Below, piece by piece: positions 10,010 through 21,562 of a stretch of 27,439 bases of DNA; the first letter of the stretch is position 1, and each line of letters begins with the position of its first letter. The position numbers and the translations under genes were made by a program. This DNA comes from a virus. The stretch covers positions 1-27,439 of IMG/VR virus record IMGVR_UViG_3300033148_003861, one strand, 5' to 3'. Below the pieces are notes generated by a model, which worked only from the letters and a program-made list of their open reading frames with translations, did no database searches and had not been told where the DNA came from.

Positions 10010-10774
10010 ATGAAAGTACTTCTTGCAATTAATACTTTAACTTTGATAGACAATTTTGTCTATAGTAACCATGCCCAACTATATTATAGACTAGGAAAGG
10101 GACTGAAACAGGAAGATGACGTAATACTGTTTCACCCTTTCCGGATGTCTATTGATCGCATGAGAAATATGGCGGTCAAGACTGCGCTAGATAATGAATG
10201 TGATTGGCTTTTCTTTGTGGACGATGATGTACAAGTTCCCCGTGATGCGTTTTTCCGACTTGCATCACATGACAAAGATATCGTAGCGGGTGTTACCTAT
10301 ATTCGTGGTTATCCATTTCATCCTATGATCTTTCGTAATAAACCGGAAAGCGAAGGCATGGATTACTTGGATGATTACACTAGCCATGTGCAAGACGATG
10401 GTCTTATAGAATGTGATGCAGTCGGATTTTCCTGTGTACTTATTAAAATAGATTTAATTCGCAAGATGTCTTCACCATACTGTATAACAGGTGCGAATCA
10501 CACTGAGGATATTTACTTTTGTCAGAAAGCTATTGCAGAAGTGCCTGGAACAAAGATTTATGTAGATCCAGCAGTACAAACTGCGCATAAGTTAGGTGTT
10601 GAGTTTATAGAAAAATCTAATATTGAACCTATGAAAACTTACATGGAAGCATTGGATACTAAACCTGAAGAATCTGAAGAAGGCAACCGCAAAGATCGTT
10701 CGGAGAAGTATTTAGATGAAAATAAAATCAACCTTGAAAGCCTTGAATCTCGGCTGCGGATTGACAAAATTTGA
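10010..10774 (+). CDS. GT-A-type glycosyltransferase
   Basis: The protein has 254 residues. The pattern RMSIDRMRNMAVKTAL (45-60) followed by DWLFFVDDDVQVP, with DDD at 71-73, is the nucleotide-sugar and metal-binding DxD region of GT-A enzymes. TEDIYF (165-170) supplies the probable catalytic acidic residues and AHKLG (192-196) a likely C-terminal metal-binding His. It should transfer a sugar from a nucleotide sugar to an unknown acceptor. The last 45 residues are charged and probably flexible. Its 3' end overlaps the methyltransferase gene by 59 bases in another frame. The same two activities are fused in the protein at 12114. Confidence 0.8.
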   Translation: MKVLLAINTLTLIDNFVYSNHAQLYYRLGKGLKQEDDVILFHPFRMSIDRMRNMAVKTALDNECDWLFFVDDDVQVPRDAFFRLASHDKDIVAGVTYIRGYPFHPMIFRNKPESEGMDYLDDYTSHVQDDGLIECDAVGFSCVLIKIDLIRKMSSPYCITGANHTEDIYFCQKAIAEVPGTKIYVDPAVQTAHKLGVEFIEKSNIEPMKTYMEALDTKPEESEEGNRKDRSEKYLDENKINLESLESRLRIDKI

Positions 10775-11303
10775 AAGCAGCGAAGATACAGAATTTATTA
10801 ATGTAGACATCGATCCAAAGATGAATCCTGATGTTCTTCATGATATAACTAAAATTCCATTTCCTTTTGATAAAAATAGTATAGATGTTGTATATCTATT
10901 ACATACTATTGAGCATCTTAACAATGAAATTCAGATCAAAGTGCTTAATGAAATTAGGAGAGTTCTAAAGGATAATGGAATTTTAGTAGTTTCTTATCCC
11001 GAATTTATTAAGGTAGCCCAAAACTATATTGATAATAAAAATGGGAATAGATATTTCTGGAAAGCAACAATTTATGGAAGGCAATTGAGTCCTTTTGATT
11101 ATCATGTATCGCTGATGGATACTAGGTATTTTGTACAATTACTGAATGCCCTAAAATTTGATGTTGTTACAACTAGACCGGAACACAAACAAGTGTTCAA
11201 TACTCTGGTAATTGCGCGGAAAAGTAATGCGCTGTTAACTAGAGAGCAAGTGATTAACGACGAAATTTTTGGAGGCAATGATGGAAGTGCAAGAGCAGAT
11301 TAA
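10716..11303 (+). CDS. SAM-dependent methyltransferase (class I)
   Basis: The protein has 195 residues. Motif I is ALNLGCG (9-15), the acidic residue after strand 2 is in NVDID (29-33), and the methyltransferase signature LLHTIEHL lies at 61-68. RRVLKDNGILVVSYPEF is the usual strand 5 region. This is the Methyltransf_11-like small-molecule/sugar type, not a DNA methylase: no DPPY or NPPY is present. ATG 10716 has GGAGAAG seven bases upstream, inside the glycosyltransferase gene. The pair probably acts on the same product. Confidence 0.82.
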   Translation: MKIKSTLKALNLGCGLTKFESSEDTEFINVDIDPKMNPDVLHDITKIPFPFDKNSIDVVYLLHTIEHLNNEIQIKVLNEIRRVLKDNGILVVSYPEFIKVAQNYIDNKNGNRYFWKATIYGRQLSPFDYHVSLMDTRYFVQLLNALKFDVVTTRPEHKQVFNTLVIARKSNALLTREQVINDEIFGGNDGSARAD

Positions 11304-11745: not shown

Positions 11746-11756
11746 AAAGGACTTCG

Positions 11757-11921
11757 ATGGATTTAAAAGCATACACTTTAGCCTATGTTGCATATGGTGT
11801 ATATCGAGCGTACACTGTAGAGAAATTACCAGCTTTCGAGGATTTAACTGAAGAAGATCAAGAATTCTGGAAACAAGCTGTAATGGCTACGGAAAAGTAT
11901 ATAGAGAAAGGTAAAAAATAA
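11757..11921 (+). CDS. Small RyR-like phage protein
   Basis: ATG 11757 follows AAAGGA by five or so bases. The 54-residue product contains AYVAYGVYRAY, then LPAFEDLTEEDQEFWKQAV. The pattern of aromatic helix, 'LPxFEDL' and 'EFWKxAV' is common in small phage proteins related to the RyR domain, a small helical fold of uncertain role in phages. Family placement is from pattern memory. Confidence 0.6.
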   Translation: MDLKAYTLAYVAYGVYRAYTVEKLPAFEDLTEEDQEFWKQAVMATEKYIEKGKK

Positions 11922-11949
11922 ATTACTTGAAGACTGGAGAATATAACTT

Positions 11950-12111
11950 ATGCAAGAACAGAACTATGAAGAAATGGATGATGACTTAAAAAAGCTTTTG
12001 AAGAAAGATTATGACCAGGTGAAGAAACAAGTTAAGGAACTTCCTTCAGAAGATTATATAAGATTGTTTACACCTAAAAAAAGAGATAAATTTAAGGAGA
12101 TTAAAAAATAA
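11950..12111 (+). CDS. Tiny highly charged protein
   Basis: ATG 11950, with TGGAG ten bases upstream, opens a 53-residue frame ending at TAA 12109-12111. The product is Lys/Asp/Glu-rich (DDDLKKLLKKDYDQVKKQ) and predicted helical. No known motif. Its stop is two bases before the next gene's ATG, and its last codons carry an AAGGAG that may serve that gene. I have no function for it. Confidence 0.5.
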   Translation: MQEQNYEEMDDDLKKLLKKDYDQVKKQVKELPSEDYIRLFTPKKRDKFKEIKK

Positions 12112-12113
12112 AA

Positions 12114-13304
12114 ATGAAGCGCAAAGTTACAACTGGACCTGGAATTATGATTGTAATTCCGACATTAGGTCGGCCTGTCCCACTAAAATGGGCTGTACAC
12201 TTTAAATCTATAAATCCTCCAATCAACTTTAACACTGAACATTTTATTATTGAGAATAAGCCAATAGCTGAAGCTCGAAATGCTGCGTGCAAAGCTGCAC
12301 TAGAAAAAGGCTGCAAATACCTTTTCTTTTGGGGAGACGATGTAGTTCCTCATTCGCTCAATACTTTGAAGCAATTAATTTTTCGCATGGAAACTGTGAA
12401 AGACTGTGGGGTAGTAGGAGGGATTTATTGTAGTAAAACTGATCCTGCAGCCCCGTTGATATTCAAGGGAAATGGGCGTGGAAGCTACTGGAATTGGAAG
12501 ATTGGGGAGTTTCTTGATGTAACTGGTATTGGGATGGACTGTACTTTAATTCGTCTTGATATTCTAAAAGACATCAAAGAACCCTGGTTTAAAACTGTTG
12601 AGGAAGATACATTCGATGAGGGCATTAACAAAGCTGATCAATGGACTGAAGATCTATATTTCTGTAAGAAAGTTGTTGAAGAAACTGATTGGAAAGTTTA
12701 TGCAGATTGTTCATTGCTTTGTGGGCACTTGGATGTATATGAAGGACGCGAGTATAACTTGCCCACAGATTGCCCTCCAGTAACAGGACAGCCTATTGAT
12801 GGAACTAAAACTAAGAAAATTGTAGATCTTGGTTGTGGAGAGATTGATAGGTCTACAGATTTTAAAGATTATAACTTGGTGCGAGTAGATATTAGAGAAG
12901 AGTGTAATCCAGATTATAGATGTGACTTGCATTCATTACCGTTTGCCAATGAAGAGTTCGATATAGTATTTTCCAGTCACGTGCTTGAACATTTCTCGCG
13001 GGGGGAATGGGAAACTGTATTGCGAGAATGGATTAGAGTTCTTAAAATAGATGGACGCTTGCACTTGATTCTCCCAAATCTGGAATGGGCATTGGATAAT
13101 TTTGATACAAATAAGATTATTCTCACGCAACCAGATGCATATAATGTGATCTATGGAGGTCAAACTAATGATTTTGACTATCATAAAGTTGGTTTTACTC
13201 CTTCAATCATTAATGCACATTTGAAAGCGCTGGGATTTAAAGAAATTACAATTGAAAAGGAAGGTTATAATATGCTAATTAATGCTACAAAAACAGGGAG
13301 TTAA
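12114..13304 (+). CDS. Fused glycosyltransferase-methyltransferase
   Basis: The protein has 396 residues. The N-terminal half is a GT-A-type glycosyltransferase: IVIPTLGRP (13-21), IAEARNAACKAALEKG, then FFWGDDVVP with GDD at 74-76, TEDLYF (178-183) and a GH pair at 204-205. After a short linker near 220-234 comes a class I methyltransferase: IVDLGCG (236-242), RVDI (257-260), SSHVLEHF (287-294) and WIRVLKIDGRLHLILPN. The domain order is the same as the two separate genes at 10010 and 10716. It probably adds and methylates a sugar. ATG 12147 is an alternative start; ATG 12114 has AAGGAG about 14 bases upstream. Confidence 0.8.
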   Translation: MKRKVTTGPGIMIVIPTLGRPVPLKWAVHFKSINPPINFNTEHFIIENKPIAEARNAACKAALEKGCKYLFFWGDDVVPHSLNTLKQLIFRMETVKDCGVVGGIYCSKTDPAAPLIFKGNGRGSYWNWKIGEFLDVTGIGMDCTLIRLDILKDIKEPWFKTVEEDTFDEGINKADQWTEDLYFCKKVVEETDWKVYADCSLLCGHLDVYEGREYNLPTDCPPVTGQPIDGTKTKKIVDLGCGEIDRSTDFKDYNLVRVDIREECNPDYRCDLHSLPFANEEFDIVFSSHVLEHFSRGEWETVLREWIRVLKIDGRLHLILPNLEWALDNFDTNKIILTQPDAYNVIYGGQTNDFDYHKVGFTPSIINAHLKALGFKEITIEKEGYNMLINATKTGS

Positions 13305-16341: not shown

Positions 16342-17691
16342 ATGCCGATTATAGATGTAGTAAGATTGCAACGGAAGTTAAAAAATTTCCTAGTTGATAA
16401 GGGAATAGTATCTCCTCGTAGCTATCTAACTCTCGATAACTTGGATGCATTGGGGGAAGGAATTGAAGGGGCTACTAGAAGCATGCCTCCACAAGTAGGT
16501 ATCCCTGGTTTTTTGGCAAGTAAGGGAATGGGGGCAGCTGTAGACGTTGCCAAGAATGTTGACATTGATGCCTTGATGCGTGGGATAAAAGAGTATCAGG
16601 ATGTTTTTAATCTTTCAGTACTGCCTTTAGCTAAGCGTTCCGCAGTATCTTTGAAAAAACTTTCACATCAGTTAGAGATTCCAGATATTATGGAGTTTTT
16701 GGCAAAAAGATACCAACGCGAAGATGTAAATTTTCCTTTTAGTAGAGGAGGGCGGGAAGCTACTTATTTTAAAGCTGGACCTGCAAAATCTGGAGAAATA
16801 TATAGTCAATTTTCTGATAACTTAGTAGAAGGAGGCCCTGTAGCAGTTATCGTGAAGGCAAGGCCAAAAAATCCTCTAGTTCTTCATAAAAGAAGGATTT
16901 TTGATGATTCAGGACATACTCTAGAGAGACTCTTAGGAGAACGAGGGTTTAGAGAATTAAGTTCTTTTTTGAGTGGTGGACAAAAAGGCGTTTACAAAGG
17001 ACAATCCTCTCTGAATAAGTGGAAATCTATTACTACTTCTAAAGATGTAGATATTTTAATAGAAAGGCTCTCGAAGTTAACTGGAGAATCTAAGAATAAA
17101 TTGAAAGATCTAAAGGATGCACTTAACTTTCAGAGAACTCAAGCTACGTATCAGGGTGATCCTTATTTTCTTGTAAAAGACTTCCTGATGCACAACATTG
17201 CCAAGAAAAAAGGCTATGATTCTATTATTCGTAATACTTTTGGATCTGGAGAATTAGATTTTGAAACAATTGGCAAAGGCAATGCTTCTACTATCACTGA
17301 TGAAGCTCTAGCAATGTTTAAGGCTAAGAGGAAGGGAATTAAGAAATCAGTGGATAAGTTATTTAGTCAGGAGAGTATAGTAGAAGCATTGCCCCCAAAG
17401 AAAGCATCTTCTACTAGGGCAACAGAAAGTTCTCATACAAATTTACAAGCTTTGGATAAACCTAGAGTATCAATAACTCCTAAATGGAATATACCTCCTC
17501 CAAAAACAACGATACTTAACAATCTCCTAAGCATGAAAAAACCTAATAATCTTGGTTTTGTTGCAGCACAAAATCACCAATTAGGAAATAAACGTTATGA
17601 CTTTGATAATTCTATCTGGGCTAAGAAAGCTCTCTGGTTGTTAAATCAGGATTTGGATAATTTTGGGCTAAGAAAGCTCTCTGGTTGTTAA
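16342..17691 (+). CDS. Accessory virion-block protein, possible ADP-ribosyltransferase-like domain, C-terminus broken
   Basis: The annotated frame has 449 residues, but its last residues (after WLLNQDLDN, ending FGLRKLSGC) are the product of a 47-bp tandem duplication. With one copy removed the frame continues into the next ORF, giving 513 residues ending ELYKKVF at 17930. The centre contains FSRGGREATYFKAGPAKSGE, then VAVIVKARPKNPLVLHK (168-183) and KGYDSIIRNTFGSGELDF (290-307). The 'NPL' strand, later 'GYDSII' and acidic end resemble ART-PolyVal-type ADP-ribosyltransferases; this is a pattern match only and the canonical triad is not clear. The remainder is helical and basic. It starts directly after the adaptor stop. 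Confidence 0.5.
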   Translation: MPIIDVVRLQRKLKNFLVDKGIVSPRSYLTLDNLDALGEGIEGATRSMPPQVGIPGFLASKGMGAAVDVAKNVDIDALMRGIKEYQDVFNLSVLPLAKRSAVSLKKLSHQLEIPDIMEFLAKRYQREDVNFPFSRGGREATYFKAGPAKSGEIYSQFSDNLVEGGPVAVIVKARPKNPLVLHKRRIFDDSGHTLERLLGERGFRELSSFLSGGQKGVYKGQSSLNKWKSITTSKDVDILIERLSKLTGESKNKLKDLKDALNFQRTQATYQGDPYFLVKDFLMHNIAKKKGYDSIIRNTFGSGELDFETIGKGNASTITDEALAMFKAKRKGIKKSVDKLFSQESIVEALPPKKASSTRATESSHTNLQALDKPRVSITPKWNIPPPKTTILNNLLSMKKPNNLGFVAAQNHQLGNKRYDFDNSIWAKKALWLLNQDLDNFGLRKLSGC

Positions 17692-17710
17692 ATCAGGATT
17701 TGGATAATTT
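17617..17710 (+). repeat. Perfect 47-bp tandem duplication
   Basis: Bases 17617-17663 and 17664-17710 are identical over 47 bases, beginning TGGGCTAAGAAAGC and ending GGATAATTT. Forty-seven is not a multiple of three, so the duplication shifts the frame and creates a stop at 17689-17691. It may be a real mutation or an assembly artefact. Confidence 0.95.
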
Positions 17711-17930
17711 GGCAGATAAAATTAAAGATGTTCTCTATCCGTTTGTAAACAATAAAAGTATTACTAAAAAACAATATTCTGATACTGTAGCTACTGTAAA
17801 GAGTGTTACCAATCGCATGAAGGCACTAGAGTACGGTCCTTCAAAAGTGTTAGACAACCTTTCTCTCACTCTTGCAGACAAAGGTGTCCCTCCTATTATC
17901 ATTCAAGAACTTTACAAGAAGGTTTTTTAA
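17685..17930 (+). pseudogene. Displaced C-terminal part of the 16342 gene
   Basis: The frame opens inside the second copy of the duplicated sequence; TTG 17685 is the formal start and there is no ribosome site. It encodes about 81 residues, helical and basic (ADKIKDVLYPFVNNKSITKK) ending ELYKKVF. It is in frame with the 16342 gene once one 47-bp copy is removed. Its stop overlaps the nozzle gene start as TAATG, the usual junction here, so it is the natural end of the upstream gene. Confidence 0.7.
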
Positions 17931-20659
17931 TGGCAGATATCACAAGAAAAGATTGGGCGCGTGGTTATATTCCTTCACAGGATCGGACTAACGGTGATCC
18001 ACGTGGTTTACTGCGAATGGATAATCTGCATTTAGATGAGGATAATGTACTATCACTGACGCGAGGATCGGAAAGAATCAATACTACAGCTTTTGGTGGA
18101 ACAGTCCACACTTGTTATTCTAAGTATGTCCTTACTACAAAATGGTATTATGCAGCTCTTTCTGATGGTTCCGTTCGCCGTTCTTCTGATAATTTCACTT
18201 CTGAAACTATGGTAGTTAACCCTGGAGAAGGGAATTTAGGAAGAGCATCTTTTGGTTCTTCTCTTGGATGCATATTCACTTTCTCAGGGGGACAAAAAGG
18301 ACGAAAGCGCGAATATTTGAAGGATGGCACTTTACAGACCTTCAATTGTACTCCTGAAACTCCTACAGAAGCTCCTGTTATTAATGCGATTAATCAACCA
18401 GTCCAATGGGTATTTGAAGATCCTTGGATTGGAGGAGATTGGTCTATAGTAGAAAATGAAGGCTTAAATTTAACTGTAGGTACTACCTACGCACAATTTG
18501 ATACCGCAGATTCAGGATCAGGCACCCCGTCAGTGTATAAAGCTGTAATACTAAATACAAGTGAAATAGATACTCGGGTGGAAGGTAACTCCGAGTATTT
18601 ACAAGATGATGGGTTTAGTATTGCAGTTCGTATTCAAGATTCAGCACTGTTAAATAGAGTACGGATAGAATTTATTGCCGATGATATAGATGAAACGAAA
18701 AACTATTACTGGAAAGAGTGGGATAATCGAAGTAATTCTCCTTTCTTGATGGGTAAATCTGCGTGGACTACCCTTAAATGTAATCGTTGGGAGTTTATTC
18801 GTGAAGGTGTTGATAACGATTTTAATTGGAGCACAATTGTAGGAATGAAAGTTATAGTAGAGTCTACCTCTGCTATGCAAGGCAATGCTATTGCAGATGT
18901 TCGTTTTACAGGGGGTGAAGAAGGAAAGTTACATGGACTCTATGACTATATTCAAGTAAATGTCTCCAACAATGGTGTATATGTTGCCAAATCGGGAATG
19001 TCTCCTGCAAAAGAATCAGTATTTGTTTCAAAAGGTTATGTAACCCTAGATATTCAAGTTCCCACTGATGATGAATCTATCAATGAGATTTGGATCTTTA
19101 GACGGAGTTCGGATTATACTAAAGCAGAGATTATTCCAGAAGGATCTCGTCCTGAACTTGATGCCTACTATTTTGTTGCTAAATTAGAACAGGTTGGGGG
19201 AGTTTTTCCTCCTTCAGTGGAAGATAAGACATCTGATCTTGAAGCCCTTGGGGATAATCTAATCTATCGCACCAACTTTATTTCATTACTTGAATATCCC
19301 GATGATATCCTAGGTTTTATTCCTGAATATAACGGGCGTGCGATTTATTTGACTTTTAAGGAAGTCTTGTTTTCTGATTTGCGAGATCCTGGTCTTATTG
19401 ACAATTCTGCTACAATTAAACTTAGTGGTGATCCAACACAAAAGAATTTATGGATAGCTAAGACTCACCCTAGCCAATTCTATATAGGGGCTACGAATGA
19501 AATATATATCTTGAGAGGAAAGTTACAATACTTGCCCGATGGTTCTATGAATGTTCATGTGGATAGTCTGGGGATTGATACTTTACCTCTTGCAGCACAG
19601 GTAGATGAGAGCAAGGGTATCCTATATTTTATTGCCGCAGATGGAGTAAAGTATATTAATGGCTCAGAAATTGGGGATATTTCTGGTAATCTTAAGCTGT
19701 TATTTGAAGGTCATACACGCTATGAGATGCCTGGAATTAAAATCTATACTTATGACACTGCTGTATATCCAATTGCAATTGCTAAAGGAAAGCTCTGGAT
19801 TTCAGTTCCTCTAGTTGCAGGGGTCGAAGGAGGTGATGCACGTATCTTGTTTGTCTATGACATTGCTAAGCAATACTGGACAACAGTTTTTAACAATCCC
19901 GCATATTTGTTTACTGAAGAGGATGGTGGATTACTCTCTGGTTTTGGTGGCTACATGCGAGAATTGGATACCGGAACGCTATTGGATGGAGCTGTCGGAC
20001 AGCGAATCTTTTTTGAAACTATTGCTGATGATAATAATCAACCTCGCAATCGTAAGGATGTTTTTACCTTTAAGATTACCGCAGATAGTGGTAATGAACC
20101 CGTGCGGATTCTAATTGCAAAGGATGGCTCGGATTTATTCTATGAAATAGGAGAACAACGCTTTGATGGAAAGTCAGAAAAACTTGTTTCAATTGCAGAA
20201 ACAATTGGTCTTGGAAAGTCTTTTGCGGTTCGTTTAAGAGCTGATTCTCTTTCCGTCTTTAAACTATATCACTTCTCAATTGAATATGATGCCAGACCAG
20301 AACAACTTACTTATATCCGAATACCCAATACAAATTTGGGAACGCCTTCTCGAAAAAGATTTGTTAACTTTCCCTTTGTTATTGATACCCTTGACCATGA
20401 ATGTGAATTCTTTCCATTGATAGACAATGTAGTTGCGGGAAGTTCGTCATTAGTACAAACAGCTTCAAAACTAACACATATCCACTATTTTTATCCTACA
20501 ACTTTGACTGATCCTATGCAAGATGAGTTTGTTGGGACAGATATTGGGGGTATAATTTGTGGTTTTTTTGAATTTTATGGAGTAGATTTTGAGGAAATTG
20601 TAAGTGAAAAATTGCCAATTCCTGTCAAGAGTATGCTCATTCCTGGAAGTGATTATTGA
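17930..20659 (+). CDS. Tail nozzle-like protein, ends at an in-frame TGA
   Basis: The 909-residue product is a large beta-rich protein with short strands throughout (YYAALSDGSVRRSS, TFSGGQKGRKREYL, LYFIAADGVKYINGSEI), suggesting a propeller like the tail-nozzle proteins of podoviruses (T7 gp12 type). It probably forms the tube below the adaptor ring. The last 112 residues are the first of three related modules. TGA 20657-20659 ends this frame, but the same frame remains open to 21562, so the full protein may have 1210 codons before the stop. The TGA lies where the neighbouring modules have Gly (GGA). TAATG links it to the gene upstream. Confidence 0.72.
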   Translation: MADITRKDWARGYIPSQDRTNGDPRGLLRMDNLHLDEDNVLSLTRGSERINTTAFGGTVHTCYSKYVLTTKWYYAALSDGSVRRSSDNFTSETMVVNPGEGNLGRASFGSSLGCIFTFSGGQKGRKREYLKDGTLQTFNCTPETPTEAPVINAINQPVQWVFEDPWIGGDWSIVENEGLNLTVGTTYAQFDTADSGSGTPSVYKAVILNTSEIDTRVEGNSEYLQDDGFSIAVRIQDSALLNRVRIEFIADDIDETKNYYWKEWDNRSNSPFLMGKSAWTTLKCNRWEFIREGVDNDFNWSTIVGMKVIVESTSAMQGNAIADVRFTGGEEGKLHGLYDYIQVNVSNNGVYVAKSGMSPAKESVFVSKGYVTLDIQVPTDDESINEIWIFRRSSDYTKAEIIPEGSRPELDAYYFVAKLEQVGGVFPPSVEDKTSDLEALGDNLIYRTNFISLLEYPDDILGFIPEYNGRAIYLTFKEVLFSDLRDPGLIDNSATIKLSGDPTQKNLWIAKTHPSQFYIGATNEIYILRGKLQYLPDGSMNVHVDSLGIDTLPLAAQVDESKGILYFIAADGVKYINGSEIGDISGNLKLLFEGHTRYEMPGIKIYTYDTAVYPIAIAKGKLWISVPLVAGVEGGDARILFVYDIAKQYWTTVFNNPAYLFTEEDGGLLSGFGGYMRELDTGTLLDGAVGQRIFFETIADDNNQPRNRKDVFTFKITADSGNEPVRILIAKDGSDLFYEIGEQRFDGKSEKLVSIAETIGLGKSFAVRLRADSLSVFKLYHFSIEYDARPEQLTYIRIPNTNLGTPSRKRFVNFPFVIDTLDHECEFFPLIDNVVAGSSSLVQTASKLTHIHYFYPTTLTDPMQDEFVGTDIGGIICGFFEFYGVDFEEIVSEKLPIPVKSMLIPGSDY

Positions 20660-21232
20660 AATCCTAATAGAAAGCGGCACTCAAGTTATAAGTTTGTTAT
20701 TAACACGCGCGGGCAGCCAGTCCAATTTACTCCGCGCATTGACCAAACCTGGTATCCTACAGCTACATACACTACTAGTGAAAAGCAGACAGTAGAGTAT
20801 TTCTTTACTACTGATACAATTGGGATTGACATTGGTGGGCGTCTTGATTCGCTCGCTAGTACACCTTTTGAGTTTTATGGTAATATTGTTCCACAAACGA
20901 TAGAGATACTTCCCGATAGACTACGCGAGTTTAGAATTCCTGAAAATAACTACGGACATGCAGCTAAAAAACGTCTCCGCACGATGCCAATGACGATTAA
21001 CACCAATGGAGAGGATGTAACCTTTACACCTTATATAGACAATGTTGCGCAAACTCCGACAACTTTAAATACTCCAGTAAAGCAAACAACTTTTCATTAC
21101 TTTAGTACAGATGTGTTTGGCATTGATTACAGTGGAGAGCTAGTAGCTACTACGAATACACCCTTTGAATTTTATGGATTAGAGAAACCTGAAGGAGTAG
21201 AGGTACTTCCTGTAGCAAAGAAATTTGACCAA
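20321..21232 (+). repeat. Three tandem beta modules of about 100 residues
   Basis: The modules begin at linkers IPNTNLGTPSRKR, IPGSDY-TGA-NPNRKR and IPENNYGHAAKKR, with the Gly/TGA position at codons 804, 910 and 1009 of the gene. Each module contains 'FTPxID' or 'FFPLID', a 'THIHYF/VEYFF/TFHYF' strand, 'GTDIGG/GIDIGG/GIDYSG' and '(F)FEFYG'. The nucleotide sequences have diverged, so the duplication is old. Confidence 0.8.
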
Positions 21233-21562
21233 GTAAATCTTAAAGTAGATAGACTCGCAAAACTTCAGCGTTTGCGTCTTCGGGCAATAACGGAAGAAAA
21301 CGCAATTCAGTTAGTTATTAAAACTGAGGCTGAGGTTACTTTACCTAACATGACTGGTACTTCAGGTATCCATACTATAGACATTCCAACTACTCCAAAT
21401 ACCGACGATGTTTGGGAAATCATGTTACCAAAAGGTGTCTATGGAACCAGTTTTAGGTTTGAACTTGGGCCTACTAGTACTCCTTTCCATAGGTATGAAT
21501 TACAAGTACTAATGGTACAGAGTGGAGTACATGCAGATCCTAAATGGGTTAAATTAAAGTAA
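20660..21562 (+). CDS. In-frame C-terminal extension of the nozzle-like protein
   Basis: This 300-codon stretch is in the same frame as the nozzle gene and follows its TGA directly with no other stop. It holds modules two and three (FTPRIDQTW..., TPFEFYG at both module ends) and a C-terminal beta domain ending VHADPKWVKLK. ATG 20984 would give a 192-residue protein, but it starts inside module three and has no ribosome site, so an independent gene is unlikely. It could be made by readthrough of the UGA, or be untranslated if the TGA is a real nonsense mutation. TAATG joins it to the next gene. Confidence 0.6.
   Translation, partial: NPNRKRHSSYKFVINTRGQPVQFTPRIDQTWYPTATYTTSEKQTVEYFFTTDTIGIDIGGRLDSLASTPFEFYGNIVPQTIEILPDRLREFRIPENNYGHAAKKRLRTMPMTINTNGEDVTFTPYIDNVAQTPTTLNTPVKQTTFHYFSTDVFGIDYSGELVATTNTPFEFYGLEKPEGVEVLPVAKKFDQVNLKVDRLAKLQRLRLRAITEENAIQLVIKTEAEVTLPNMTGTSGIHTIDIPTTPNTDDVWEIMLPKGVYGTSFRFELGPTSTPFHRYELQVLMVQSGVHADPKWVKLK

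Follow-up and report, generated by a model that had tools for sequence, protein, structure and literature searches.

The putative tail nozzle gene of an uncultivated phage, as it stands in one metagenomic record, carries a TGA at codon 910. The TGA is very probably a recent change, private to this contig, of a conserved glycine codon, arising either as a true nonsense mutation or as a base error in the metagenome consensus, and without a programmed role. The original prediction had listed nonsense mutation, sequencing error, UGA readthrough and UGA decoded as glycine as explanations. The first two have the best support, given a TGA seen in this contig alone, relatives with an unbroken frame and another frame-breaking lesion close by. 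We find no programmed or functional feature at codon 910; the TGA itself is present in the given sequence.

The nozzle gene and its interrupted frame

The window, by which we mean the entire stretch of DNA analysed, is one 27,439-base IMG/VR virus record that is classed as linear and is possibly a fragment. Its main genes share one orientation, and among them are those for a large terminase, a major head protein and a head-tail protein. The nozzle gene lies downstream of the terminase, portal-position, head and head-tail genes, in an order common to the relatives. For the predicted structure of residues 1–789 (mean pLDDT 80), the best Foldseek matches were the portal-tail/nozzle chains of A4, SU10, Pa223, T7 and P22 (E from 1e-10 to 2e-15, with modest TM-scores of 0.3–0.6), and searches of Pfam, PHROGs and PDB sequences gave no matches. 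Having both a nozzle fold and a place among structural genes, the gene is, on its predicted structure, a tail nozzle of the T7/SU10/P22 type from an uncultivated short-tailed phage.

Elsewhere in the window, glycosyltransferase-like and methyltransferase-like domains are fused in one gene (12114–13304). Such a pair is found as two separate genes at 10010–10774 and 10716–11303, and in most relatives. Two stretches, 1–946 and 11746–12113, contain no ORF of at least 60 amino acids on the + strand, and the former ends in an AT-rich low-complexity tract (about 813–890).

As originally described, the frame that begins at ATG 17930 is open up to the TGA, its sole interruption, and then for 300 further codons to TAA 21560–21562 (Table 1). 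When the 900 nt downstream were shuffled 2000 times by mononucleotide, the frame never stayed open. Three homologous modules of about 100 residues each (pairwise identities of 31/98, 41/102 and 35/100, or 31–41%) form an array in which codons 804, 910 and 1009, reading GGA, TGA and GGA, occupy equivalent positions. This equivalence had been predicted and stands, but the term linker is not quite exact: codon 910 falls near the start of module 2, in a turn that directly follows the first strand of this module (residue 171 of the model, flanked by strands 162–168 and 176–186). Fold searches with the module array returned generic beta-sandwich matches only, with TM-scores of at most about 0.25, and the modules are therefore given no function.

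Table 1 Features of the nozzle gene and its surroundings in the window.
Feature	Position	Strand	Basis
Tail nozzle gene, ancestral long frame, 1210 codons with one in-frame TGA	17930..21562	+	Frame, relatives' alignment, Foldseek nozzle fold
In-frame TGA, codon 910; glycine (GGN) in 18/18 relatives with module 2	20657..20659	+	
Module 1 of the C-terminal array	20282..20599 (approximate bounds)	+	Module comparison, structure model
Module 2, interrupted by the TGA	20600..20896 (approximate bounds)	+	Module comparison, structure model
Module 3	20897..21208 (approximate bounds)	+	Module comparison, structure model
C-terminal domain, kept by all complete homologues	21209..21559 (approximate bounds)	+	Homologue comparison
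Exact 47-nt tandem duplication, breaking the frame of the upstream gene 16342–17930	17617..17710	+	

Codon 910 in relatives and constraint downstream

Neither half of the nozzle gene retrieved a relative from IMG/VR or INPHARED in single-protein searches, and an exact-DNA scan around codon 910 found no near-identical contig. Relatives were found via terminase and head-protein searches followed by alignments, and stepwise searches yielded about 30 nozzle homologues. Eighteen records contain module 2 (17 viral contigs and one MAG contig, comprising about 15 distinct lineages, with four close kin). Every one of them has a single open frame with a glycine codon (GGA, GGG, GGT or GGC) in place of the TGA, and the motif around this glycine is [DN]YGxP[ND]RKRHxSYKF. 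Homologues that are more distant and have one or two modules likewise consist of a single frame and keep the C-terminal domain. Among the more distant homologues only one, L055 (IMGVR_UViG_3300037827_000273), is interrupted, elsewhere in its array.

The C-terminal domain is present in every complete homologue and would be lost from the short form of the window's protein. The original prediction held that homologues ending at codon 910 would mark the short form as normal; none ends there and, judged from the homologues, the short nozzle is not the normal form. The TGA is private to this contig and the long form is ancestral: since the relatives are uninterrupted, have glycine at this position and keep the C-terminal domain, the TGA stems from the window's own lineage or from the sequence record.

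Module number in the family ranges from one to six (window, L055, L056, L057, L059–L061, L063 and L079–L095), and the array is always followed by the same C-terminal domain, which looks like duplication and loss in a tail tip protein. One close relative, L095 (JAHFMX010000009.1), is located on a contig assigned to a bacterial MAG of 1.2 Mb (isolate nzgw467); if the binning is right, this MAG may lead to the host.

Branch lengths after and before the stop were compared on a fixed tree for the window and six relatives. The ratio of the two is 0.51 for the window, within the range of the relatives (0.42–0.71), and we thus see no relaxed constraint downstream of the TGA. With no decay in this part of the frame, the change should be recent, or not real, or tolerated through readthrough.

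A second lesion and the origin of the TGA

The 47-nt tandem duplication sits 2.95 kb upstream of the TGA, in the gene adjoining the nozzle gene, and splits that gene into ORFs of 449 and 81 amino acids. The two copies are read in one and the same frame in both ORFs, which is what the breakage of a single gene would produce. In 12 relatives the gene has no detectable homologue, and the duplication is either an assembly artefact or a true recent duplication. No exact tandem duplication with a unit of at least 20 nt was found in 96 other loci (1.09 Mb in all, some loci overlapping).

Across 47 loci, 319 ORFs supported by homologues were surveyed automatically, and no other nonsense or frameshift break was detected; the survey is not exhaustive, as it missed the split in L055, which was found by hand. 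The other core genes of the window align with those of relatives without breaks. Candidate breaks in L027, L013 and L089/L094 turned out to be an antisense frame and ordinary gene junctions, and the paired glycosyltransferase and methyltransferase genes, another candidate, represent natural fusion or separation. With two lesions within 3 kb of the contig, a consensus or assembly of poor local quality, or a genome at the start of decay, is a better reading than a programmed signal. Given the few breaks in relatives, a plain sequencing error is no better than one rare event among others.

In the reading that we favour, a conserved glycine codon (GGN in relatives) would have changed recently to TGA in this contig only, whether the sampled genome or population truly carries a nonsense mutation or the metagenome consensus has a base error. 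Read as written, the gene would give 909 residues, and the nozzle would lack module 3, the C-terminal domain and the greater part of module 2; the functional ancestral product would be the long form of 1210 residues. The uninterrupted GGN frames of all 18 module 2 records and the C-terminal domain of all complete homologues count for such a mutation or error. Counting against it are the leaky context of the UGA, which is followed by A at position +4, and the intact downstream frame, which readthrough also predicts. We infer that the change is non-functional.

Alternative readings and known systems

If UGA readthrough were functional here, a near-cognate tRNA, probably tRNA-Trp, would decode the codon in a few per cent of cases, so that short nozzle subunits would be many and long ones few. 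UGA with A at +4 is the leakiest sort of stop context, one that tRNA-Trp tends to misread in E. coli (PMC5289835), and the 300 downstream codons are open and constrained as in relatives. These properties agree with the minor long tail protein of the original prediction, but neither conservation nor RNA structure supports it. The stop is found at codon 910 in 0 of 18 relatives, the RNA after the TGA is less structured than 197 of 200 shuffles, and the short subunits would be devoid of a domain that all complete homologues keep. Furthermore, neither the window (a linear record, maybe a fragment) nor 15 loci of relatives contain a tRNA gene, including one for a suppressor with a UCA anticodon. 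We consider functional readthrough unlikely. It is a long shot that the TGA is genuine and leaky and that mostly short nozzles are made along with a few long ones, the extra modules of which alter host contact, with the split in L055 as a second solution to having two array forms; were readthrough true, this would be a DNA-phage tail case resembling that of Q-beta.

Gene fission, in which the 909-residue short nozzle would work and the remainder would be a relic or be made separately, is an equally doubtful reading. The possibility is suggested by L055, in which a six-module array (L055:9495–10484) is split after module 4 by a TAGTG stop/start overlap into two ORFs, the second comprising two modules and the C-terminal domain; this split is itself either a natural fission or a one-base error. 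Fission would also suit a family in which module number varies. In the window, however, the break is inside module 2 and not at a module boundary, and the separated downstream part shows no decay. The first in-frame ATG, GTG or TTG after the TGA is the ATG at 20984, already inside module 3, and the remainder therefore cannot restart as a complete module set.

Decoding of UGA as glycine (NCBI code 25) in a phage of a Gracilibacteria/Absconditabacteria-type host would account for the ancestral residue being exactly glycine. Clearly code-25 phages are dense with in-frame TGA, and certain phages predicted to infect code-25 hosts are compatible with code 11 and have hardly any (PMC10746230); the one TGA of the window could then mark an early stage. 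This reading is contradicted by all relatives and by the way in which stops are used in the window: (i) of the 28 other ORFs listed, 9 end with TGA (the list is mechanical and counts small ORFs too), in line with the original remark that other genes use it as a stop; (ii) a single in-frame TGA stands against the 563 glycine codons (GGN) of the window, where the probability of at most one TGA is 0.02 if 1% of glycines were encoded by TGA and about 1e-11 if 5% were; and (iii) the relatives contain no in-frame TGA. Because code-11-compatible phages of code-25 hosts are described (PMC10746230), we also compared back-up stops, which are no closer after TGA than after TAA or TAG (P = 0.18). The only MAG with a relative has a release-factor-2-like match, a weak point against code 25, since the match is below the curated cut-off and the MAG is of unverified binning. 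It is very unlikely that UGA encodes glycine in this phage. Selenocysteine does not fit, as the homologues have glycine and the structure after the UGA is weaker than in shuffles, with no hairpin.

The TGA matters little by itself. What looks temptingly like recoding in one metagenome contig vanishes on comparison with relatives, and the adjacent frame-breaking lesion is a useful warning. Of mild interest for how tails evolve is the nozzle family itself, with an array of one to six modules that one member has split into two overlapping genes.

Recent in-frame stops in prokaryotic genes are reported to be most frequent in phage and mobile genes and to be mostly short-lived (PMC7918605). They resemble a private change at codon 910 in being recent, lineage-private and flanked by conserved coding sequence on both sides; here, however, an error in base calling or assembly is no less plausible as the cause. 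Residues 1–789 of the window's protein share their predicted fold with phage tail nozzle proteins (T7 gp12, the SU10 nozzle, P22 gp10 and those of cyanophage A4 and Pa223), with a sequence identity of only about 8–12% over the aligned fold. Unlike these known nozzles, the window's family carries an extra array of beta modules and a C-terminal domain, to which no solved counterpart is assigned. The A1 protein of phage Q-beta is comparable in that, as in the window, a short structural protein is followed by an in-frame UGA and then by an extension that stays open. The Q-beta stop is conserved and functional, whereas the TGA of the nozzle gene is private to one contig and absent from its relatives.
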